From: Enterococcus moraviensis ATCC BAA-383
GTDB lineage: Bacteria; Bacillota; Bacilli; Lactobacillales; Enterococcaceae
Reading direction: 5' to 3'
DNA: 64,000 nt
NCBI RefSeq assembly: GCF_000407445.1
Contig: NZ_ASWB01000005.1
Coordinates: forward strand, 1-64,000
This document shows positions 15,973-51,598 of this stretch, in pieces (position 1 is the stretch's first letter; every line of letters begins with the position of its first letter). The notes below the pieces were generated by a model. That model made no database searches and had not been told where the DNA came from. It saw nothing but the letters and a program-made list of their open reading frames with translations. Made by a program: the position numbers and the translations under genes.

Positions 15973-18900
15973 ATGAAAATCGGAAAAAAGTCTTATTTTA
16001 TTGGGCTAGCTTTTGTTCTATTCAGTATTTTAGCGGTTATTTTCTTTAATAACTCTAATAAAATTGAAGCAGCTGAGGAACCTTTGATAGAAAACGTTGA
16101 TTCTTCTACCCTATTAAAAACCGAAGAGGACCTGCATAATCAAGAAACGATTACTATTCCCCAGATGGAAGCCTATATGGATGGAACTAATTATCAACCT
16201 ACTCAGACAAAAATTGAGAACAAAATCACTGGAAGCATGACAAATGAGCAGTATCAAACACAATATGCTGATTTGAATGCTCAGCAAAATCAAGCATGGA
16301 ATACTCAATATAATTTCCGACCTGATACCAATGCCGTCCATGTAGCAACTTGGGCTGAATTTAGAGCAGCATTTGAGAATAATAAAGTCTCAAAGATCAT
16401 ACTTGATGCAGATATTTATTATGCTACTGCGATTGCTATTTCTAGAGCAGAATCAATTGAAATAGATGGTCAAGGGCATCTCCTTGAGATGCGAAATGGT
16501 TCAATCAACGTTGATGACTTAAGTTCTTTGGCAAGTTTCGGCAAAGCGTTTTCTGACGTACCAGTATTCCACATGCATGATATTCAAATTGCGAATAATA
16601 CTGGATATGGAGCGTTAGAGGGGAATCTGGGAACTGCGTGGTCGTTTGTTAATGGTAAAGGACAATGGGGGACAGGTGGTTCAACTGGCTCAAATAGAAG
16701 ATTATGGCGTTACAGAATTGGAAATATTTACACTCCTTATGACACTAGTAAAAAAAGTGATAACCAACGTGTAGGTGGCCGTTTGATCAGTGCTCCTCGT
16801 GCTGAAATCAGCATGTACGGATACAATGTCATTGTAACAGGTGCTGAAAATTTCTATACCGGTGGGATGACTTTTGAACCTAGTACCTTTTATAAAGGTA
16901 CAAACGCTGAGTATGATTATTCCGTTGTTTGGTTCATGGATAATACTGGTAAAAATGGTGATACTGATTCGACAGGGACAAGGAAATTTGATATTGGAGA
17001 AGGTAGTTTTGTGTATTTAAATTACACAGCTAACGGGACCAATTACCCTGCTGTGTATAACTTTTTCGATGAGCTAAGAGTCGGGAAAAATGCAACTTAT
17101 AATGCAAATATGCCAGGGTCAGCTGCCTATTTTAATGTGGACGATGCAAGCTTTATAGCGGAAGAAGGTTCAACAGTTAATTTACTTTCTCGTGCAGGCA
17201 GTCGAGCTACTGTTCAATCTGGTGCTGTAAATGCTACGAATACTGGTTCACAAGCGAATCCTAAAAATACTAAATATGAATTTAAGCCTAAATCAAATGT
17301 GTTTATTGTTGGGAATAACAATGGTGGAGTAGTTGCGTATAACTCAACTAATGGAGGAAATCAATTTATATTTGATAGTCCAGAGTCATTTGATATTCGT
17401 AATTCGTTTAATAGTACAACAACGACCAATGCCTTTTTGGGTGATACAACGTCGAATAGAGGAACCAACAGTTTCACTATAAAAAATTCTGATATATCTA
17501 TTTGGAATAATCAAGCAGGTATTGATGGTGCTCCAACCTATGACTATTCAAACGTAACAGATTTCACTGTAACAAATGGCATAGCGAACGGAAGTGTTAC
17601 AAGTTCTGATCCAACACTTCAAAGTCAATACAGTCGTCCAAATTACAAACGTATTTCTGGAATGAATAGCACACCAGAGTTGACATGGACGCCAGTAACT
17701 GATGCGGATTTCGACCAACAGAATCGTATTTTAATAGGATACACAGCAGTTGGTGGTAGTGATCCGTTTGATGAGGATGGTAATGCAAAAACAAAGCCAG
17801 TTTATGCAGATAGTATTCGTAAAGCCTATGTCGACTTTACAGATACTTTGGGAAATACGTTTACTGGAATAAGTACGGATGATAATTATGTACACTGGAA
17901 AAAGGCAGATCATACGATACCAGGATTTCAACTTGCTCAAAAAGACATGTTCGGAACACCGTATCGTGCATCATTTGTCAATAGTGTTTTGACACCGTAT
18001 AGAGTAGGAGAAAAGACACCGACAACAGTAATTGATGTCACACCACCTGAACCAGCTATTGTTACGGGTGATAAAGTCACCAATGGAATGAAGCAATTGA
18101 TTGGGAAAGATGCTGAACCAAAAGCAAAAATCTATGTTGATATTAATGGTACACGCCAATCTACTGTGGGAACAGTCAATGATGATGGTACTTGGGCTTA
18201 CAACTTGCCTCGTTACTTAAATATTGGTGAAACAGTTCAAATTTTCTTAGAAGATAACGCTGGTAAGATCACAGAAGTTTTAGATCCAGCTGCACCATCG
18301 ACCAATAGTGATACTGGAAATATCAACCCAGCTACTGAAATGAAATATCGCGATGCTACATTTAAGGCAGCGACGAAGTATACCGTCGAAGATGTATTAC
18401 CAGATAAACCAGTTATGGAAAAAACGGTTGTTTCTTCTGGTGGACAAACAACCCAAGTTGGAGATGTGTTGACGTATACGTTAACTGCTAAGAATAACAA
18501 GGCAGCAACATTTACTACAAATTGGTCAAAAGTTGTGATAACGGATACCCTTCCTGCTGGCTTAGATTTTGATCCAGCAACAGCTGATATTAAAATTAAT
18601 GATGTTACAGCTGTAAGTCCAGCTGATTATACGTATGATTCTGATTCTCGTGTATTAACAATCAATGTTGGAGATTTAGCAACAGGAGCAACCGCTAAGG
18701 TGACATTTAAAGCAACCGTTGCAGCCAAAGCTGTTGGGACGATCATTACGAATGAGGCGGAAGCAATCGGTGATTCTCCAAGAGAAACCCCATTTGTCGA
18801 AGGTCCAAATGATCCAAATGCAAAATATGAAACCTATTCAGCAAAATCACTTGCAGTAGATAATCCTGGTGGCACAGTTTTTGGTGTTTTAGAATTAGCC

Positions 18901-19329
18901 TCTGCACCAACAGAAATTGATTTCGGCAGTGTGAAATATCAAGGGAAGAAAACCCGAGTGAACGCGGCTGAACATCATGGTGCTGATCTTGTCGTTAAAG
19001 ATAGCCGAGCAAATAAAAAAGGCTGGTCTTTGACTGCTAAAATGACGACACCAATGACAAGTACAACACCAGATGCACCTGTCTATACACTAGATGGAGC
19101 GGTGAAGTATGTTTACAAAAACCGTGAGATCACGCTAAACGGTGGAGCACAAGATATTATGGTACAGGATGCTGTTACTGGTGGATCAATTGAAGGAGCT
19201 ACCTATAACATTAGTGATACATGGTCTGAGTCTGGTGACGGATTCAAATTTGAGGTTTCTGCTCAAGATGTGAAAGCACTTGGTTCTTACCAAGGAGAAA
19301 TTCTTTGGGAATTGGGCGATGCTCCATAA
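15973..19329 (+). CDS. Large WxL-domain surface protein with beta-helix region
   Basis: 1118 aa, secreted. A signal/anchor-like hydrophobic segment covers 8-27. A pectate-lyase-like beta-helix adhesive region spans about 105-560. A bacterial Ig-like domain lies at about 690-780 and a DUF11-type domain at about 805-940 (LTYTLTAKN...VVITDTLPAG). A C-terminal WxL domain lies at about 965-1118, with the two motifs GWSLTAKM and ILWELGDAP. WxL domains bind non-covalently to the cell wall. First structural gene of the locus, SD GGGGAGGAG. It probably acts as an adhesin or matrix-binding protein. Confidence 0.9.
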   Translation: MKIGKKSYFIGLAFVLFSILAVIFFNNSNKIEAAEEPLIENVDSSTLLKTEEDLHNQETITIPQMEAYMDGTNYQPTQTKIENKITGSMTNEQYQTQYADLNAQQNQAWNTQYNFRPDTNAVHVATWAEFRAAFENNKVSKIILDADIYYATAIAISRAESIEIDGQGHLLEMRNGSINVDDLSSLASFGKAFSDVPVFHMHDIQIANNTGYGALEGNLGTAWSFVNGKGQWGTGGSTGSNRRLWRYRIGNIYTPYDTSKKSDNQRVGGRLISAPRAEISMYGYNVIVTGAENFYTGGMTFEPSTFYKGTNAEYDYSVVWFMDNTGKNGDTDSTGTRKFDIGEGSFVYLNYTANGTNYPAVYNFFDELRVGKNATYNANMPGSAAYFNVDDASFIAEEGSTVNLLSRAGSRATVQSGAVNATNTGSQANPKNTKYEFKPKSNVFIVGNNNGGVVAYNSTNGGNQFIFDSPESFDIRNSFNSTTTTNAFLGDTTSNRGTNSFTIKNSDISIWNNQAGIDGAPTYDYSNVTDFTVTNGIANGSVTSSDPTLQSQYSRPNYKRISGMNSTPELTWTPVTDADFDQQNRILIGYTAVGGSDPFDEDGNAKTKPVYADSIRKAYVDFTDTLGNTFTGISTDDNYVHWKKADHTIPGFQLAQKDMFGTPYRASFVNSVLTPYRVGEKTPTTVIDVTPPEPAIVTGDKVTNGMKQLIGKDAEPKAKIYVDINGTRQSTVGTVNDDGTWAYNLPRYLNIGETVQIFLEDNAGKITEVLDPAAPSTNSDTGNINPATEMKYRDATFKAATKYTVEDVLPDKPVMEKTVVSSGGQTTQVGDVLTYTLTAKNNKAATFTTNWSKVVITDTLPAGLDFDPATADIKINDVTAVSPADYTYDSDSRVLTINVGDLATGATAKVTFKATVAAKAVGTIITNEAEAIGDSPRETPFVEGPNDPNAKYETYSAKSLAVDNPGGTVFGVLELASAPTEIDFGSVKYQGKKTRVNAAEHHGADLVVKDSRANKKGWSLTAKMTTPMTSTTPDAPVYTLDGAVKYVYKNREITLNGGAQDIMVQDAVTGGSIEGATYNISDTWSESGDGFKFEVSAQDVKALGSYQGEILWELGDAP

Positions 19330-19351
19330 AAGTAAAGGAGATTCTTAATCT

Positions 19352-19714
19352 ATGAGAAAAAAAATCAATATATTAATCTTCTCCTTTACTTTGCTATTAT
19401 CGCTAGCAATCAGTTATCCTTTGACTGCTATGGCTAATAACAATGGAGGAGAAGTGCAAACAGATGGTGTGATTCGTTTTTATGAAGATAGTTCTTCAAC
19501 GGAGCCATCAACAAGCACATCAACAAGTACACAACCGTCAAGTAACACGTCAACGAGCTCATCTCAAGTTGCTAAACCTGTTGGACGTTATCCGAGCACT
19601 GGTGAAATGGTAAAAACAAGTCTTGTATTTACCGGAGTCGCTTTGGTCATTATCGGATTACTTCTGTTTTTCTGGAAACGCAAGAAAGAGAAAGAAGGGC
19701 GGGATAACAAATGA
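19352..19714 (+). CDS. Small sortase-tailed surface protein (CscD-like)
   Basis: 120 aa. Signal peptide (1-28), then a short segment GVIRFYED (39-46), a Ser/Thr-rich spacer, a sortase-type signal YPSTG (80-84), a hydrophobic segment and a positively charged tail (WKRKKEKEGR). The usual Leu of LPXTG is Tyr. The segment at 39-46 is repeated in both WxL proteins that follow (see findings). It overlaps the next gene by four bases (ATGA), so translation is coupled. It corresponds to the small LPXTG members known from WxL (csc) clusters. Confidence 0.85.
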   Translation: MRKKINILIFSFTLLLSLAISYPLTAMANNNGGEVQTDGVIRFYEDSSSTEPSTSTSTSTQPSSNTSTSSSQVAKPVGRYPSTGEMVKTSLVFTGVALVIIGLLLFFWKRKKEKEGRDNK

Positions 19715-20520
19715 GAAGATTGAAAAAAATAATTAAATTTCTCGTTATGCCAATTGCTGTGATTTCTTTATTAGCGCTTACCAGTGATACTGCATTCGCA
19801 GAAGCAGAAGCAATAAGTGGACCTGGCAAAATCAAATTTTCAGGTGAATATCCGCAAGACATTGTTGATCCAGAAAAACCAGGTGAGATCGTCGATCCAG
19901 GAGAAACACCCCAACTTAAAGGGGATTTGAGAATTGATTTTGTTCCTAAACTAGATTTTTATCAGAATAAAATTTCCGATAAAGATGAAACATACTATGG
20001 AAATGCACAAAATTTCTTTGGTGCAACCAAACCTAGAGGAAACTTTGTTCAAGTCACTGACTTGAGACAAAAGCCAACAGGGTGGACGTTACAATTGCGT
20101 CAGGAAATGCAATTTACCAATAAAGAGACTGAACACAGCGAAATAAACGGGGCAATGTTATCACTAGATAAATCTTGGGTAAGTTCTACTCGAGATGCTA
20201 GTGGCGCGCCCCAACTCTCAAAAGAGATCATTAATATAGACAATATAGGTGCTTCGTATAACTTAGCACAAGCAAATGCTGGTCAAGGCGCAGGAACGTG
20301 GACAATTTCCTTTGGTGCATCTGAAGAAAATCAGAATAACCAAAAGAATACACTGGAACCTAGATTAGATCATACTGGTCAAGCAGTTTTAGATCCAGTA
20401 TTTGATAACAAACCTGTCTATTTGAATAAAGCTGTTTCACTATCAATTCCGGGAACAACAATCGTTGATCCGGTACCTTATACTACGGTGTTAACTTGGA
20501 TATTAGCCGAGTTGCCATAA
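19711..20520 (+). CDS. WxL-domain cell-wall-binding protein
   Basis: 269 aa. Signal peptide (about 1-30), the locus motif GKIKFSGE (39-46), a proline-rich IVDPEKP linker, then one WxL domain with motifs GWTLQLRQ and the C-terminal LTWILAELP. Length and layout are those of the simple WxL proteins of enterococci and lactobacilli. Exported and retained non-covalently on peptidoglycan. Translationally coupled to the preceding sortase-tailed gene. Confidence 0.92.
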   Translation: MRRLKKIIKFLVMPIAVISLLALTSDTAFAEAEAISGPGKIKFSGEYPQDIVDPEKPGEIVDPGETPQLKGDLRIDFVPKLDFYQNKISDKDETYYGNAQNFFGATKPRGNFVQVTDLRQKPTGWTLQLRQEMQFTNKETEHSEINGAMLSLDKSWVSSTRDASGAPQLSKEIINIDNIGASYNLAQANAGQGAGTWTISFGASEENQNNQKNTLEPRLDHTGQAVLDPVFDNKPVYLNKAVSLSIPGTTIVDPVPYTTVLTWILAELP

Positions 20521-20570
20521 ATAGAAACAACACACACACACTAACATACACAAACTAGGAGGAAACACAC

Positions 20571-21344
20571 ATGAAAACAAAAACATTATGTTCAGTAGCA
20601 TTATTAACTTTATTAGGAGTAAGTCTAGCAACACCAGCGGTAGCTAACGCTGAAGCAAAATCTTTACCAACTAACGGTAAAATCAAATTTACTGAAGACA
20701 ACGGTCCGAAAGACATCGTTGACCCAGAAGATCCAAAAGAACCAGTTATAGATCCAAAAGAACCAATCATCGTTAACCCAGATCGTGGTTCATTCAGTAT
20801 TGACGCTGTAACTGAATTAAACTTTGGTGAAGATAAAGTAAAAGCTTTCGCTTCTAACCCAGAATACTTTGCTGCAGCAATCCCAGTAACAACTTCTAAA
20901 GGGGATGTTACTCGTGGAAACTATGTACAATTTACAGACGTACGTGGTGTTGCAAACCATAAATACCAAGTAAGTGCACAATTATCAAAACAATTCGAAG
21001 CAAACGCTAACGCTGGAACTTTCTTGAAATCAGCTACGATTGATTACTCAAATGCAGCAATCACATCTGCTGATCCAGCAACACAATGGCCAGCAACAAC
21101 TGTTGCCGGATTCCAATTAGCAGCAGATGCAGCTGGAACAGGCGCTGGTTCTTCAGTAGTAGTTTTAGATAACAAAGACGCATCTAAAGGAATCGGAACA
21201 TACACAATTGAATTTGGTCAATATGGTGACGGAACAGCGGATACAACTGCTGAATCTGTTAAATTAACTGTACCAAACACAAACGTTTTACTAGCTGATG
21301 AATATACAGCTGAAATCACTTGGACAATTGCGGAAGTATTATAA
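20571..21344 (+). CDS. WxL-domain cell-wall-binding protein, highly expressed type
   Basis: 257 aa, a close relative of the preceding protein: signal peptide (1-27), GKIKFTED (36-43), IVDPEDP linker and a WxL domain ending in ITWTIAEVL. The first motif is degenerate (no clear internal WxL; HKYQVSAQL takes its place). Codon use is markedly biased to the preferred codons, and the gene has a CA-rich 5' leader with AGGAGG, both suggesting high expression. A hairpin with a short T-run follows at 21410-21444. Confidence 0.92.
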   Translation: MKTKTLCSVALLTLLGVSLATPAVANAEAKSLPTNGKIKFTEDNGPKDIVDPEDPKEPVIDPKEPIIVNPDRGSFSIDAVTELNFGEDKVKAFASNPEYFAAAIPVTTSKGDVTRGNYVQFTDVRGVANHKYQVSAQLSKQFEANANAGTFLKSATIDYSNAAITSADPATQWPATTVAGFQLAADAAGTGAGSSVVVLDNKDASKGIGTYTIEFGQYGDGTADTTAESVKLTVPNTNVLLADEYTAEITWTIAEVL

Positions 21345-21409
21345 TTTACACTGAATAAGTAGGTTGAATTATATCGCATACTTTAAGTAGTTATGTTCAT
21401 ATAAATGGC

Positions 21410-21444
21410 GAGACAGAAATAGTTATTTCTGTCTCAGCCTTTTT
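21410..21444 (+). terminator. Hairpin between the WxL and DUF916 genes
   Basis: A 12-bp perfect stem (GAGACAGAAATA and complement) with a 2-base gap at its centre, followed by AGCC and five T. It is probably a leaky terminator that lowers expression of the downstream genes relative to the WxL gene. Confidence 0.6.
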
Positions 21445-21460
21445 AAAGAGAGGGATAGCG

Positions 21461-22531
21461 ATGAAGAAAAAGCATCTATTATTTTTAGTAATGTCACTTA
21501 TGATAACAATACTTTTGCCAATCAAGACATACGCAGAAGAAAACAGCGGCGGCAACGCAACTGGCTTTACATATGAAACAATTAAACCTGACAATCAGAA
21601 GAGTCAAGACGCAGGCTACTTTGATTTAAAGATGACACCTGGGCAAAAACAAACCGTTAAAATCAAACTTAAAAACTTGGCATCAGAAGAGGTAGAAATC
21701 TCAGTGAAATTAAATGGTGCTAAGACAAACGCTAATGGAGTTATTGAATATGGTCCGACAACGATCAAAAAAGATAATTCATTAAAATATGATTTTGAAA
21801 GTATTGTTAAAGCTCCTGAAACAGTTAAATTGCCAGCCAATGGCGAAAAGGATGTCGACATAGAAATTACGATGCCAGAAGCTTCATTTGATGGAGTGAT
21901 TTCAGGCGGAATCCAACTGCAAAAAATTGAAAAAGAAGAAGCCTCAAAACCTAAGAAAACGGGTGTTATCAATAAATACGCTTATGTCATCGGGATGTTG
22001 CTTTCTGAAACGGACAACGAAGTTCAACCAAATTTAGAATTAAATAAAGTTTATGCTGAATTAAACAACTTTCGTAATACATTTTTTGTGAACTTTTCTA
22101 ATGTGCAACCTGCCTATCTAGAGAATATGACAACACAAGTTCAAATCATGAAAGACGGCAGTGACGAAGTTTTATATGAAACAAAACGTTCTGGTATGAG
22201 AATGGCACCAAATTCTTTGATCGATTTTCCAGTCAGTATGGAAGGGGATAGCATGGTTCCAGGAGGCTATCGCGCTAAAATCTTAGTGACTTCTGGTGAG
22301 AAGAAATGGGAATGGGATGAAACGTTCAAGATTACAGATGAAGAAGCAGATAAATTCAATAATCAAGACGCTGGTTTAGAAGATGTTCAAACCTTCAACT
22401 GGCAGTTGATTGCAGGAATTGTGGGAGGCGTAGTAGCCTTAGCAGTTATTATTTTCTTCGTAATTAGAGCCGTAAATAAAAAGAAACAAGCAAAGAAAAA
22501 ACAAGCAAGAAAAAAGAAACCTAAAAAGTAA
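21461..22531 (+). CDS. DUF916/DUF3324 WxL-associated surface protein (CscA-like)
   Basis: 356 aa. Signal peptide (1-25), an N-terminal DUF916 region (about 30-165, beginning GFTYETIKPDNQ...YFDLKMTPGQKQTVKIKL), a DUF3324 region (about 175-310), then a transmembrane helix (about 312-336) and a Lys-rich tail. In this family the protein binds both WxL proteins and peptidoglycan and tethers the complex to the membrane. SD AGAGAGGGA. It is a standard member of every WxL cluster. Confidence 0.92.
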   Translation: MKKKHLLFLVMSLMITILLPIKTYAEENSGGNATGFTYETIKPDNQKSQDAGYFDLKMTPGQKQTVKIKLKNLASEEVEISVKLNGAKTNANGVIEYGPTTIKKDNSLKYDFESIVKAPETVKLPANGEKDVDIEITMPEASFDGVISGGIQLQKIEKEEASKPKKTGVINKYAYVIGMLLSETDNEVQPNLELNKVYAELNNFRNTFFVNFSNVQPAYLENMTTQVQIMKDGSDEVLYETKRSGMRMAPNSLIDFPVSMEGDSMVPGGYRAKILVTSGEKKWEWDETFKITDEEADKFNNQDAGLEDVQTFNWQLIAGIVGGVVALAVIIFFVIRAVNKKKQAKKKQARKKKPKK

Positions 22532-45212: not shown

Positions 45213-45270
45213 TATCACGGAACAGGATAAAAATGATAGGAATTTTTATCCTGTTCCGTGATAATTTTTT
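45213..45270 (+). terminator. Strong terminator after the ABC-F gene
   Basis: A 22-bp perfect stem (arms at 45213-45234 and 45242-45263) with T-run. The region to 45512 is otherwise AT-rich without a gene and should hold the promoter of the following surface locus. Confidence 0.92.
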
Positions 45271-45536
45271 TTACTATTGCCATAAAAAGGTCAAAAACGA
45301 TATGAAAATTGAAGATCTTTAAAAAAAATTAATGATTTTGAAATATAAAACAAATGCACTTAAATGGTGAATAATGTATAGAAAGTTAAAAAAAATTAAT
45401 CTAAAATGAATAAAATAATAATGGAAATAAAAAAACTGTTGTTATTAAATTGAATTTTACTTGAAATTACAATACAATGATAGAGGGATGAAGATTTTAA
45501 AATCTGATTTCTATGAAAAAAGTAGGGGAGGATGTC

Positions 45537-48212
45537 GTGAAAAAAAGTATTCATTTAATTTTTATTAGCTTCATTATCTTAATGATATTTCCGATTGATT
45601 GGTCTTACGCTATAGAAACGACGCATTCTATTGAAGAAAGCTCTTCGACAGAAGAAAGTTCACAAACGACTGAGGTGACTGAGTCTACGGAAGAAGAGGC
45701 GGTTTCTGAATCGTCAGAACTACCAATCGACGATTCCTCTGTTGAGCAAGAATCCTCCGAGGAAGAAATAACTGTCGAAAGTGAAAAAATAACAGACGAT
45801 AGCAGTATAAATAATTCAATAGATGAAAATAAATCTGAAATAAATAGTAAACAAATGTTAAGGCTAGATGCTGCACAAGATGCGGACGGCTTTTGGTTAG
45901 TTGATTCAGCTGCTACATTAACAGAGTATTTAAAAGATAGTCAAAAACTAAACTTTCGTTTGACTGCTAATATTGATTTAGGATCAAATAGTTTTCAGCT
46001 TAAAGATCAAATGATCATTGATGGTGCTAATCACGTTGTTACATATAACAAAGGGGGTTCACCAACTAATGGTTTTTATGCGAATCAAGCAAATGCGGTA
46101 ATTGAGATTCGTAATACACAGTTTGGAAACAGTGACGGCTCTGGTGCAGTAGGCTATTATGGTATTTTATCTGGAGGATCAGCTGCTAATATGACATTTA
46201 TATTTGATGGTGTTGATTATTATTCAACAAATGGTCAAATGATTCATAACATAAACGGGTCGGTCATTATGCGAGGGCAAAACAATATCGATCAAAGAGG
46301 AACGAATACATATTCCCAGGAATGGGCAGAAATCAATTACGTAGAAATTCAAAGCGGTCATACTTCAATCAAACATGCTGGAACAACAGAAGCGTTTATT
46401 TGGTCGACCAGTACTACCTCGGCTAATCCACACGCAGGGACTTCCCAAATTGTAGTGAAGGAAAATGCTCAACTTGATATACAAACGAATGGAAATGTGA
46501 TGTATGGTAGTTTGTCACCAAGTTATATCGTTGAAAAAAATGGTATTTTTAATTTGGATAAAGTGACACTAGCATCAACAAGTTCAAAAAATCGTTTCTT
46601 TGCTGCAAACCTGACTCAGCCAGTTACTTTCGATTTTAAAGAAAATGCCCAAGTGAATTTTAAATTACCTTTACCGATTAACCTTTATACAGCTAAGGGA
46701 GGAATGTCGATAGGGGAAAATGCTGACGTTTCAATTGATGTTGAAAACGGCAGTGTCTTCACGACATCCTCATCTAGCACCTTTGCTCTCACTATGGATA
46801 AGGTAAAACAAGCTTCGTTTGCAGGAACTAGTCTTGGAACTTTTGGACTAAATGGTGCGAATGGGGTAAATAATTTATCTTTTACAAGTAACTATTTACA
46901 AAAAATAGAAACATTCTCAAGCAGAACAAGTAGCACACCGGAACAAGAGATAGTGAAGAAAGCTTCAGATTTGAGTGCACAAGGAACGAATTTTACGAAT
47001 ATAGCAACTTCTATCGATCCATTTAATGCATCAGAACTACTTGCTTTAAAAAATTCACAGAAAATTGTATTTAGTGAATTTATAGATGTTCCAGATCAAT
47101 TAGAATTATTTGCACTTGAGGCATCGGATACTTCTATTTCATTGTCTGGAAGTTCGATGAATAATGGAAGTCCAGCAACTGAAGTAAAATTCTTCATTTT
47201 TTCTGATGAAGATGATGCAAATGATTTGAGGAATGCAAGGCAAATTGTTACGTTAAATTCATTTGATGGTCAGATAAACACAGCAGTAAAGTCACATTAC
47301 AATGTCGTAGTGGATGGTCTAAATCCAAATACTCTCTATTGGGCTCAAATGATGGTGGTCAATCAAGCTGGGGAAAGCGCGTTTTCGGATACTGAATTAT
47401 TTGCTACTAAACCGCAACTAAGTAATCTCACAGCAGATGTCACAACAACTACTGCATTTATCAATGGCGAACTGGCAAGTGATTCAGGGAAGTGGACGGA
47501 CTATTCAAACGGAGAAGCCGCAGCAATACCCGATCAACCAGCAGATTTTGGTGCCAAGTATCGACAAGTAACAGTAGAATATAGTAAAAATAAAGATTTT
47601 CCAGAAACTGAAACAAGCACCCAAATTGCGGATCTTTCGGGAGATAAGAATCAAAAATTTAGTACGAAATTAAAAGACCTTGATGGAGATGTTACGTATT
47701 ATGTTCGTGTAAGAGTTGCAGGTGTTCACGGAGAAGAAGTAGTTTTAGCAATGACACCTCTAACCGAATTTCAAACGGTAACGGAAATTATTAAGGTGGA
47801 AGTACCAATTGAAATGGCTTTTCAGACAGAAAATAAAGATTTAGGAACTTTGAATGAAGGGAAAGTTAGTTCAGCGGACTATCCAATTATAAATAAAGGA
47901 AACACACCGACTAAACTATCGATAACGAATCTGACCAAGGAAAATACAGACGCAAACCAATTGTTATTACTAGATAACCTTTCTGGAAACACAGGGCAGA
48001 ATGAACTGGCGTTACAGTTACTTGTGGATAATAATGAGTCGAGCCCACTCTTTTTAACGAGTGACTTAGTCAATAATCCGCTATCGGTCGTGATCTTAAA
48101 AGCCAACGAACAAAAAAGTCTGAGTCTAAAGGGTAGATATTTCAATCCAATGGAGCAGGCTGTGTATCCAACCTATAAAATGACATTTAAAGTTGAAAAA
48201 GATGGACAATGA
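45537..48212 (+). CDS. Large secreted surface protein, non-WxL (locus 2)
   Basis: 891 aa from GTG 45537, which has GGGGAGG five bases upstream and starts a classical signal peptide ending in SYA. A Ser/Glu/Thr-rich stretch (30-95) is followed by a beta-helix adhesive region (about 110-470) like that of the large WxL protein at 15973. A fibronectin-III-like part occupies about 520-750, and a C-terminal domain (750-891) carries SADYPIINKGN. That domain resembles the whole mature part of the small secreted protein at 48817. It has neither the WxL motif nor a sortase signal. Confidence 0.8.
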   Translation: MKKSIHLIFISFIILMIFPIDWSYAIETTHSIEESSSTEESSQTTEVTESTEEEAVSESSELPIDDSSVEQESSEEEITVESEKITDDSSINNSIDENKSEINSKQMLRLDAAQDADGFWLVDSAATLTEYLKDSQKLNFRLTANIDLGSNSFQLKDQMIIDGANHVVTYNKGGSPTNGFYANQANAVIEIRNTQFGNSDGSGAVGYYGILSGGSAANMTFIFDGVDYYSTNGQMIHNINGSVIMRGQNNIDQRGTNTYSQEWAEINYVEIQSGHTSIKHAGTTEAFIWSTSTTSANPHAGTSQIVVKENAQLDIQTNGNVMYGSLSPSYIVEKNGIFNLDKVTLASTSSKNRFFAANLTQPVTFDFKENAQVNFKLPLPINLYTAKGGMSIGENADVSIDVENGSVFTTSSSSTFALTMDKVKQASFAGTSLGTFGLNGANGVNNLSFTSNYLQKIETFSSRTSSTPEQEIVKKASDLSAQGTNFTNIATSIDPFNASELLALKNSQKIVFSEFIDVPDQLELFALEASDTSISLSGSSMNNGSPATEVKFFIFSDEDDANDLRNARQIVTLNSFDGQINTAVKSHYNVVVDGLNPNTLYWAQMMVVNQAGESAFSDTELFATKPQLSNLTADVTTTTAFINGELASDSGKWTDYSNGEAAAIPDQPADFGAKYRQVTVEYSKNKDFPETETSTQIADLSGDKNQKFSTKLKDLDGDVTYYVRVRVAGVHGEEVVLAMTPLTEFQTVTEIIKVEVPIEMAFQTENKDLGTLNEGKVSSADYPIINKGNTPTKLSITNLTKENTDANQLLLLDNLSGNTGQNELALQLLVDNNESSPLFLTSDLVNNPLSVVILKANEQKSLSLKGRYFNPMEQAVYPTYKMTFKVEKDGQ

Positions 48213-48222
48213 GAGGAATTCT

Positions 48223-48753
48223 ATGGATAAAACAAACGAAGAGAAGAAGAAAAAGAAACGACTACTGCTACTATTATTGTTATTGTTACTTGTATTATCA
48301 GCTGGCGGTTTATACTATTATTTCTCTACTAAAACGGAACCTGTTCAAGTTGTTTCCGGGGACTATTTACCAGAAACAAAAGGTGCCAAAAAGATGAGTG
48401 ATAAAGAAGTGAAAGCAGCAGAACAAAAAGCTGTTGATGCAAGCAAATTCAATATGGTCATCAAGTCAGAGGCCGTATTTGAAACAGGTGACAGTGAAGG
48501 CAGCCTGTACATTCAAAATCCCGTCGAAAACGGTTATCCTATCAACGTAGTGATTCGTTTAGACAGCAACAATGAACAAATTTATTCTTCTGGTGCAATT
48601 CAACCAGGTTATGAAATAAACGGAGCAAAACTAGATAAAAAAATTGCTCAAGGAGATCATCCAGCAACAGCCACATTTGACATTTATGATTCAAAAACAA
48701 ATAAAAAACGTGGACAAGTACAAGCTGGTATTACAATTCGCGTCAACAATTAA
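48223..48753 (+). CDS. Membrane-anchored protein of surface locus 2
   Basis: 176 aa. A short, very basic cytoplasmic end (KKKKKR), one Leu-rich transmembrane helix (about 16-34) and an outer domain (about 75-176) with an Ig-like beta pattern (GSLYIQNPVENGYPINVVIRLD...ATFDIYDSKTNKKRGQVQAGITIRV). SD GAGAGGA supports the ATG at 48223. It lies 10 bp after the large surface gene. By its place it may be the membrane tether or chaperone of the locus, as DUF916 proteins are for WxL loci (inference). Confidence 0.75.
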   Translation: MDKTNEEKKKKKRLLLLLLLLLLVLSAGGLYYYFSTKTEPVQVVSGDYLPETKGAKKMSDKEVKAAEQKAVDASKFNMVIKSEAVFETGDSEGSLYIQNPVENGYPINVVIRLDSNNEQIYSSGAIQPGYEINGAKLDKKIAQGDHPATATFDIYDSKTNKKRGQVQAGITIRVNN

Positions 48754-48816
48754 TAATGTTATTTAACAGGATTTCTGTTAAAAATAAATCAATCACACAT
48801 AAGAGGGAGAAACAAT

Positions 48817-49473
48817 ATGAAGAAAACAAACTTTTTACTTGCTGCAATGATGCTAGGTTTAAGCGTATCTGGGTTAACACAACTGGCTTCTGCTCAAACA
48901 ATTGATGGGGAAAACTCAGCGGACGTTATTATTAACGGAACAATCGGTAAATTAGATAACAAAAATCCAGATACAGCTATTCCAGAAGGGGCTGATGAGT
49001 GGATCAACGTTACTGTTGATACTGCTACAGCATTCCACACAACAACAGCTAGTGCACACAAAAATATTGAATCAGCAGATTACAGTATTGTGAACAATTC
49101 TGGACGTGGTGTTGCAGTGACCTTGAATAAGATGGTCGGAACACCAACGTATGTTGATACACTAACGATCAATGCTAAAGGCAATGGTTTAGTTGCAGCG
49201 CCTGTAGCGACGAACTTGGTTGACGGAAATGCATTGGTTGACTTGACAAGTTCCCCTGTTTGGATGCGTTTAGCAAATAAAGATGGACGTTTGAACATCG
49301 AGACAGATGCTGCTTCAACGTATGCTAATTCTGCAAAATTTAACTATACAGGTACAACAGTTGCGAACTTACCAGCAGATGTTAATCAAAAAACAACTGC
49401 AGAAGATTACACATTGACATTGAAATTTACATCAATTCAAAAAGATGGTACAACACTTGGTGTAACGCCATAA
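48817..49473 (+). CDS. Small secreted protein with WxL-like layout but no WxL motif
   Basis: 218 aa. Signal peptide (1-26, ending in ASA), then DVIINGTIG (36-44), and a beta-rich domain with AF...SADYSIVNNSG (72-97). Codon use is biased as in highly expressed genes, similar to the WxL gene at 20571. The end, YTLTLKFTSIQKDG, lies where WxL proteins have YTxxLTW. The domain matches the C-terminal domain of the large locus-2 protein. SD GAGGGAG. Confidence 0.8.
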   Translation: MKKTNFLLAAMMLGLSVSGLTQLASAQTIDGENSADVIINGTIGKLDNKNPDTAIPEGADEWINVTVDTATAFHTTTASAHKNIESADYSIVNNSGRGVAVTLNKMVGTPTYVDTLTINAKGNGLVAAPVATNLVDGNALVDLTSSPVWMRLANKDGRLNIETDAASTYANSAKFNYTGTTVANLPADVNQKTTAEDYTLTLKFTSIQKDGTTLGVTP

Positions 49474-49497
49474 TTTAATCAAAGGCTGTGATAAACA

Positions 49498-49824
49498 ATG
49501 AAACGATTTAGTTGTCACATCATTACATTGATTCTTTTGGTGAGCGGTACGATTTTTTTACAAAGTTCTGCTTATGCAGCAACAGATGTAGAAATTTATG
49601 GGCAAATCGGTGGGAATCAAACTAGTTCTCATCCGCCAAAAGAATCAGAAGCAGATACAGGTACAAAACTAGCACAACTAGCACAACCAAAGCAAACGCA
49701 CATAGAACTAAGAAGATTTCCTAATATGGGTAGTATCGTAGAAAAAATCACGCCAATTGGATTGATTCTACTAATGATTTATTTACTCGTGAATAGATGG
49801 AAAGCACATAGAAAAGAAGTGTAG
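49498..49824 (+). CDS. Small surface protein with degenerate sortase-like tail (locus 2)
   Basis: 108 aa. Signal peptide (1-27), DVEIYGQIG (30-38), a polar spacer, the sequence FPNMG (74-78) where LPXTG would be, a hydrophobic helix and a basic tail (RWKAHRKEV). It is the counterpart of the sortase-tailed protein at 19352. Whether sortase can cut FPNMG is doubtful, so it may simply stay in the membrane. It ends the locus; a terminator follows. Confidence 0.75.
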   Translation: MKRFSCHIITLILLVSGTIFLQSSAYAATDVEIYGQIGGNQTSSHPPKESEADTGTKLAQLAQPKQTHIELRRFPNMGSIVEKITPIGLILLMIYLLVNRWKAHRKEV

Positions 49825-49919: not shown

Positions 49920-49947
49920 TTGACAGCGTTTTCTTGTGTGGTATAAT
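49920..49947 (+). promoter_or_regulatory. Strong promoter before a structured leader
   Basis: TTGACA (49920-49925) and TATAAT (49942-49947) are both consensus, with a 16-bp spacer. The start of transcription should be near 49954. Confidence 0.85.

Positions 49948-50128: not shown

Positions 50129-51598
<1,470 letters not shown>

Follow-up and report, generated by a model that had tools for sequence, protein, structure and literature searches.

A stretch of 64,000 nucleotides from Enterococcus moraviensis ATCC BAA-383 (contig NZ_ASWB01000005.1, positions 1 to 64,000; referred to below as the window; genome size, 3.59 Mb) carries four consecutive genes on its + strand, which we call g1, g2, g3, and g4. 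They encode a large secreted protein, a membrane protein, a small secreted protein, and a small anchor protein, respectively. The question raised by this locus is what the domain shared by the two secreted proteins does, and how the large one, which has no anchor after its C-terminal tail, is kept at the cell surface. That some partners bear a strand and others lack it points to the shared domain being a module for subunit-to-subunit assembly: the tail of g1 is the domain without an N-terminal strand, g3 is the domain with such a strand, and g4 is the strand without the domain. From this distribution, we give about an even chance to the reading that the cassette builds a surface complex by donor-strand complementation, in which g1 would accept a strand, g3 would both accept and donate one, and g4 would donate one and anchor the complex. 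The features concerned are as follows.

45513..48212, + strand: g1, large secreted protein (899 aa from the ATG at 45513; 891 aa from the GTG at 45537)
47790..48209, + strand: tail domain of g1, residues 760-899, starting from IKVEV, assigned by homology to g3 (hhalign); putative acceptor only
48223..48753, + strand: g2, 176 aa from the ATG, with an N-terminal membrane helix and one conserved outer domain; candidate membrane-tethered assembly partner
48817..49473, + strand: g3, small secreted protein of 218 aa (signal peptide, N-terminal strand, linker, and tail-type domain)
48919..48948, + strand: putative donor strand of g3, ADVIINGTIG, residues 35-44, assigned by the motif count in g3 N-extensions
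49000..49470, + strand: domain proper of g3, starting from WINV, residue 62
49498..49824, + strand: g4, small anchor protein of 108 aa (signal peptide, strand, linker, FPNMG, membrane helix, and basic tail)
49585..49611, + strand: putative donor strand of g4, DVEIYGQIG, residues 30-38, assigned by the profile trained on g3
49717..49731, + strand: sorting-like motif of g4, FPNMG

The initial annotation of this DNA had described four genes in a row, with an 891-aa product of the first. The coordinates agree with this, and the GTG at 45537, which has a GGGGAGG stretch shortly upstream, is a plausible start of g1. The g1 protein is composed of a variable head, an Fn3-like stretch scoring slightly under the Pfam cut-off, and the conserved domain at the extreme C-terminus. 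That its tail and g3 contain one shared domain was borne out: iterated profiles seeded from g3 recover g1 tails and vice versa, and a profile-profile comparison (hhalign) of 61 g3 proteins with 52 g1 tails, aligned separately, gave a probability of 99.2% (E = 7.4e-20), the match running from the WINV/IKVEV strand nearly to the C-terminus. The same domain therefore occurs both alone, in g3, and as the C-terminal part of a large protein, g1. The motif from which this relationship had been proposed, AF and SADY separated by 15 to 20 residues, holds for g1 (16 residues) but not for g3 (12 residues).

By sequence, the domain is a family separate from WxL, since it showed no match to the WxL profile and no significant match in the PDB; it is nameless in the libraries searched. 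PF13731 did not match g1 or g3 of the window at E <=1, nor any of the 61 g3 proteins or 52 g1 tails at E <=0.1, and hhalign of the cassette domain against 77 small WxL proteins aligned the signal peptide only. The W-x-L motif is absent from g1 and g3 of the window, as had been noted initially; two such motifs were found in none of 90 g3 proteins and none of 70 g1 tails, and a single one in one g3 protein and three g1 tails. Among the 61 g3 proteins and 52 g1 tails scanned, no match to a wall-binding family was obtained, and a PDB search yielded nothing for g3 at E <=1 and no significant match for the g1 tail. At the level of sequence profiles, the two domains resemble each other and match no described wall-binding family, WxL included, which is what the initial annotation had anticipated. 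BLASTP between g1 and the large WxL protein of the same window gave no homology (best E = 0.23).

When aligned with the g1 tail, g3 has one extra conserved N-terminal element, i.e. a strand of the form (A)-x-I-x-V-N-G-T-L-G, or in short V/I-x-I/V-x-G-x-I/L, followed by a DNTDP-like linker. The g4 proteins bear a strand of the g3 type shortly after the signal peptide or after the start Met, and in their alignment it is among the few best conserved parts, beside the anchor. We counted the pattern [VILFMA]x[VILFMY]xGx[VILFM] in distinct proteins, with 300 shuffles. Of the g3 N-extensions, 79 of 88 had it (shuffle mean 3.7, largest 9), and of the mature g4 proteins, 67 of 73 (shuffle mean 3.0, largest 9); the 60-aa stretches upstream of the g1 tail were not enriched (4 of 70; shuffle mean 5.4, largest 17). 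With this motif, picked post hoc, an alternating hydrophobic N-terminal strand is found on the subunits and is absent from the putative tip protein.

With a profile trained solely on g3 strands, 54 of 73 mature g4 sequences outscored 99% of their shuffles. The corresponding numbers were 2 of 70 for g1 upstream stretches, 1 of 70 for g1 tails, 2 of 88 for g3 domains proper, 0 of 17 for the LPXTG proteins of WxL loci, 3 of 54 for small WxL N-extensions, and 5 of 400 for unrelated stretches. In addition, the strands of g3 and g4 are more alike within a locus than between loci (22.5 vs 19.3; 60 distinct pairs, each g3 being paired with the g4 of its own system, p 2e-4, uncorrected for phylogeny). 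Within single genomes, pairs from the same system scored 23.1 (n=13) and cross pairs 18.3 (n=16), numbers that are small and carry no significance test.

A parallel pattern was found in WxL loci, one of which, in canonical form, is also present in the window (15973-22531; three PF13731 proteins, one DUF916/DUF3324 protein, and one LPXTG protein matching NF053819). For this comparison, we used 20 WxL regions plus the window, counting as small WxL proteins those of at least 236 aa (54 of 60) and as large WxL proteins the open reading frames (ORFs) of at least 600 aa ending in W-x-L/F/I (19 of 21); the small-WxL profile itself recovered no large WxL proteins. The strand of these loci, Y-x-S-x-G-x-I/V/T-x-F and close variants, differs from that of the cassette. 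Of the small WxL N-extensions, 48 of 54 contain it (shuffle mean 0.36), as do 11 of the 17 small LPXTG proteins (0.26); none of the 19 large WxL proteins has it in the last 350 aa or in the first 150 aa. A profile of the WxL strand recognised 10 of 17 LPXTG proteins of WxL loci vs 1 of 73 g4 proteins, 1 of 87 g3 N-extensions, and 1 of 19 large WxL proteins. Most anchor proteins thus bear the strand of their own small subunit. In the WxL locus of the window, a G-x-I-x-F strand after the signal peptide is common to the LPXTG protein (19352) and the small WxL proteins (19711 and 20571). Across the whole genome, WxL-domain matches number at least 27 (26 of 39 candidates scored), and the g3 query detects a single copy at E <=1.

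The fourth gene product resembles the EF2685/EF0750 sortase-dependent surface proteins described by the model NF053819, which 39 of 40 g4 relatives match at E <=0.001; 19 of 40 also match the LPXTG_anchor model TIGR01167. A small protein of the LPXTG type is hence part of the cassette; the window g4 scores just below the NF053819 cut-off (42.1 bits against 47; E 1e-10) and has FPNMG as the motif. When the last match in each g4 was counted, 42 of 75 proteins had xPxTG as the sorting motif and a further 16 had xPxT followed by a different accepted residue; FPNMG, found in the window and at locus L144, has Met where most relatives have Thr. A covalent link to the wall, if any, would be provided by g4, which resembles the small LPXTG proteins of WxL loci.

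Also unlike the NF053819 family, about half of the g4 proteins (36 of 75; 35 of 73 distinct) lack a signal-peptide-like run and consist of little beyond strand, stalk, and anchor. By the same rule, the run is present in 89 of 90 g3 and 60 of 70 g1 proteins. In the leaderless g4 proteins (including those of L038-L041, L043-L052, L055, L056, L121-L123, and L158-L178, not all loci in these ranges, and others), the strand lies at almost the very start (e.g. MKSTIYIEGILGS) and the sorting-like motif and membrane helix lie at the end. All 36 have an in-frame stop no more than 14 codons upstream, and a GGAGG-like site can be seen in many of them within the 16 bases inspected. The leaderless g4 of L036 may reflect a broken signal peptide. 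A leaderless g4 must bring its N-terminus to the outside by another route.

Taken as donor-strand complementation, these patterns would translate into the following arrangement. The domain shared by the g1 tail and g3 would be an incomplete beta-sandwich, and the free N-terminal strand of one g3 subunit would fill the groove of another subunit, either g1 or a further g3. Since the g3 strand would complete the groove of g1, g1 would be placed at the outer tip. The g4 protein would offer a strand of the g3 type on a short stalk with an LPxTG-like motif and a membrane helix, and because this strand stands on an anchored stalk, g4 would cap the inner end, tying the chain either to the membrane or, once g4 had been cleaved by a sortase, to the wall. 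The membrane-held g2, with its N-terminal helix, would probably help in assembly by stabilising subunits that are not yet filled, as has been modelled for the WxL-interacting protein WxLIP (DUF916/DUF3324) with WxL.

Several points weigh against this arrangement. What the sequences show is anatomy: the genes with their conservation and order, the homology of the tails, and a strand that g3 and g4 bear and that is not enriched ahead of the g1 tail. That the fold is incomplete, that the strand enters a groove, that chains form, that a sortase anchors them, and what g2 does we infer. The strand pattern is short and was picked after inspection of the alignments, and the sequences entering the strand tests are phylogenetically related. 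With the g3-strand profile, g1 upstream stretches (median -0.8) and small WxL N-extensions (median -0.7) also score higher than their shuffles (-3.8 and -3.9), although both remain far below mature g4 proteins (median 10.3). The g4 candidates were chosen by a loose rule for an anchor-like end, and the presence of an anchor in the g4 set is consequently not an independent result. NF053819 also matches, weakly, the N-termini of the small WxL and WxLIP proteins of the window (E 1e-3 to 7e-6); since the model responds to N-termini of other secreted proteins, weak matches to it do not by themselves establish membership. In pairwise comparison, the window g4 and the LPXTG protein of the window's WxL locus are alike in the anchor alone (36 residues, E 0.001). 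The FPNMG motif, with Met for Thr, may not suit a sortase, making cleavage doubtful in this species. The g2 proteins showed no significant profile similarity to WxLIP (hhalign of 63 g2 vs 32 WxLIP proteins, probability <=20%). Finally, the cassette is incomplete at part of the loci: among the 92 loci evaluated below, g3 and g4 occur without a detected g1 in 13, g1 and g3 without a detected g4 in 8, g3 only in 3, and none of g1, g3, and g4 in 11.

Other explanations of the same data deserve consideration. The strand could be a recognition tag for a third partner, e.g. the outer domain of g2, instead of completing the tail domain; its presence on both g3 and g4 is compatible with this, as are the conservation of g2, the highest in the cassette, and the deduced nature of strand insertion. 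We nevertheless hold it to be improbable, as it accounts neither for the g1 tail, which has the same domain and no strand, nor for the published gap modelled in the WxL sandwich (PMC10599100). About equally improbable is the suggestion that g4 is a truncated duplicate of g3 with an anchor added, its strand being a remnant or an ordinary first strand, and that the repeated domain itself binds the wall. The two proteins are indeed similar in signal peptide and N-terminus, and the layout is that of WxL loci, whose domain is described as peptidoglycan-binding (PMC10599100); a remnant, however, should neither remain among the best conserved parts of g4, beside the anchor, nor match the g3 strand of its own locus, and neither g3 nor the g1 tail matches a wall-binding family.

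It is less far-fetched, while still rather unlikely, that the g1/g3 domain is a far-diverged WxL domain without the tryptophans and that the cassette is a derived WxL locus, a view that would be compatible with donor-strand complementation. The two types of locus are alike in layout and in their small LPXTG protein, and strand, linker, and domain follow one another in parallel order from the N-terminus. Against such a descent, similarity at the profile level is limited to the signal peptide, PF13731 is matched by 0 of 61 g3 proteins and 0 of 52 g1 tails, two W-x-L motifs are found in 0 of 90 and 0 of 70, respectively, and the strand profiles of the cassette and of WxL loci scarcely recognise each other's strands.

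Donor-strand complementation can further be judged by comparison with known systems. The Csc (WxL) surface clusters, described in 2006 (PMC1534035), comprise CscA (DUF916/WxLIP), CscB (small WxL), CscC (large WxL), and CscD (small LPXTG). As in the cassette, one domain occurs alone and as the tail of a large adhesin; a small secreted protein, a membrane protein, and a very small LPXTG-type protein matching NF053819 are encoded; and, by our tests, an N-terminal strand is present on the small subunit and the anchor and not on the large protein. The cassette differs in its repeated domain, as judged by profile, in the lack of W-x-L pairs, and in the sequence of the strand. It also lacks a DUF916/DUF3324 protein, and g2 has its membrane helix at the N-terminus: PF06030 and PF11797 match none of the four cassette proteins at E <=1, and both are matched in the canonical locus. 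The initial annotation had read this absence correctly and had proposed a parallel wall-display system with a different binding domain and with g2 in the place of the DUF916 protein; conservation across the Lactobacillales and the lack of WxL profile matches speak for a parallel surface cassette, while the idea that the repeated domain binds the wall finds no support in these data.

Type 1 chaperone-usher pili of Gram-negative bacteria (FimH, FimG, FimF, FimA, and FimC) offer a second comparison. They have an acceptor-only tip adhesin that ends in a pilin domain, and subunits with N-terminal donor strands of the form I-x-V-x-G-x-V; FimG supplies the N-terminal strand that completes the pilin domain at the C-terminus of FimH (PMC4786642). 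The cassette strand, I/V-x-I/V-x-G-x-V/L/I, follows the pattern of the FimG and FimF donor peptides given there (PMC4786642). Unlike these pili, the cassette is Gram-positive and would have a C-terminally anchored strand protein at its base. The eight Pfam families matched by the 61 g3 proteins at E <=0.1 include neither a pilin family nor camelysin/TasA, and g3 has no PDB sequence match at E <=1. To our knowledge, an usher is not expected in a monoderm, and no search for one was made. Within Gram-positive bacteria, the TasA/TapA filaments of Bacillus subtilis are formed by donor-strand complementation of beta-sandwich subunits through their N-termini (PMC10151520); the cassette differs from them in that it includes a large adhesin as well as a protein devoted to carrying the strand, whose end is of the LPXTG type.

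These comparisons led us to a broader proposal, to which we give a little less than an even chance: that Gram-positive bacteria use donor-strand exchange to assemble surface fibres or chains of two lines, the cassette and the WxL/Csc clusters. Each would combine a chaperone-like protein bound to the membrane (g2 or WxLIP), a tip adhesin that only accepts, a subunit that both donates and accepts, and a tiny sortase-anchored peptide with the sole task of donating the last strand and so fastening the chain covalently to the wall; CscD would be the base of the chain. If true, Gram-positive bacteria (enterococci, vagococci, lactococci, a Listeria, Leuconostoc, and Melissococcus) would own a pilus-like display device that annotation has missed. 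Donor-strand exchange would also explain the small LPXTG (CscD) proteins, whose part was unsettled in 2006: Siezen et al. (PMC1534035) proposed that CscD anchors the other Csc proteins through 'as yet unknown interactions', and called alignment not informative. A second cassette with a like layout and another domain shows that anchor peptides have one system-specific strand in common with their own small subunit, and the CscD question becomes a peptide-binding test. Among the literature matches listed, titles and abstract starts gave no link between WxL and donor-strand exchange; in one article of the library searched (PMC3796261), the terms 'WxL' and 'donor strand' both occur.

The distribution of the cassette was examined by profile search with listing of gene neighbourhoods, as the initial annotation had suggested, and its conservation across the Lactobacillales was confirmed. 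In the family Enterococcaceae, g3 was detected in 59 of 105 genomes at E <=0.001, and g2 in 71 of 105 at the same threshold and in 64 of 105 at E <=1e-8; the latter number is the one we count, because in the seven other genomes all matches are weak (E 2e-5 to 8e-4) and, in six, lie within much longer ORFs. At the level of the order, 65 of 395 genomes had a match to the g2 profile at E <=1e-8; in a class-wide sample, 7 of 398 genomes were matched, two of them outside the order with weak matches near 1e-10. Conservation within the cassette is highest for g2, with a mean column identity of 33% (27, 23, and 20% for the others). Its closest named relatives among the matches listed, from which nearest records may be omitted, are in Enterococcus caccae (92%) and E. 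ureasiticus (91%).

Completeness was assessed at 92 of 101 distinct g2 loci, i.e. those with more than 2.5 kb on either side, with g4 accepted by the loose anchor rule. A g3 gene was present at 81 of 92 loci, and g1, g3, and g4 were all present at 57 of 92; some undetected g1 genes (e.g. at L062 and L064) are hidden by a competing ORF call. The commonest order, with g1 immediately before and g3 immediately after g2, was found at 53 of 92 loci. g3 and g4 were told apart by profile and length limits, as the N-termini common to both caused the profile alone to place some g4 proteins among g3.

The heads of the g1 proteins vary, which fits an exchangeable adhesin on a common mount. The beta-helix region described initially for the window g1 has no Pfam match to such a fold, and among seven g1 relatives scanned, only L038 matches Pectate_lyase_5, under the cut-off (E 1e-4). 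Pfam matches at E <=0.01 were obtained for four of the seven: DUF285 and BspA-type leucine-rich repeats in L066, mucin- or carbohydrate-binding modules in L057 and L073, and the sub-threshold pectate-lyase-like adhesive domain in L038; L185, L067, and L044 had no match at this level. The outer Ig-like domain described initially for g2 was likewise not borne out by sequence: the window g2 matched no family at its curated threshold and had no significant Pfam or PDB match. In the 63 g2 relatives, as judged from the 25 commonest of 55 weakly matched families, two members touch Big_3_5 at E 0.016 or worse. WxLIP structures exist in the PDB (9i25 and 9i1y), and no WxL-domain relative was found there for three small WxL queries.

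Named carriers of the cassette include Enterococcus, Vagococcus, Lactococcus, and Listeria ilorinensis, and plasmid-borne copies occur in Melissococcus plutonius, Leuconostoc mesenteroides, Enterococcus raffinosus, and E. gilvus. In the three plasmid stretches examined, the cassette genes are annotated as hypothetical proteins, except for one g4 annotated as an LPXTG protein. On plasmid pMEPL_178 of the honey-bee pathogen Melissococcus plutonius (L185), the cassette adjoins genes for family 43 glycosyl hydrolases. A small mobilizable plasmid of 10 kb in Leuconostoc mesenteroides (L186) carries g2 and g3; annotation of g1 and g4 is absent from the stretch shown, the circular record being cut at its start. 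In the megaplasmid of Enterococcus raffinosus (L187), a gene for an IS110-family transposase lies between g2 and g3, and the cassette is otherwise complete.

In the window, the cassette is bordered on its 5' side by the following feature.

45215..45261, + strand: terminator-like hairpin of 20 pairs, separating the upstream gene from the cassette

Just 3' of the cassette, positions 49920-49947 match a TTGACA-16-TATAAT promoter perfectly, with a TG preceding the second hexamer; the promoter probably serves the next gene, at 50132.

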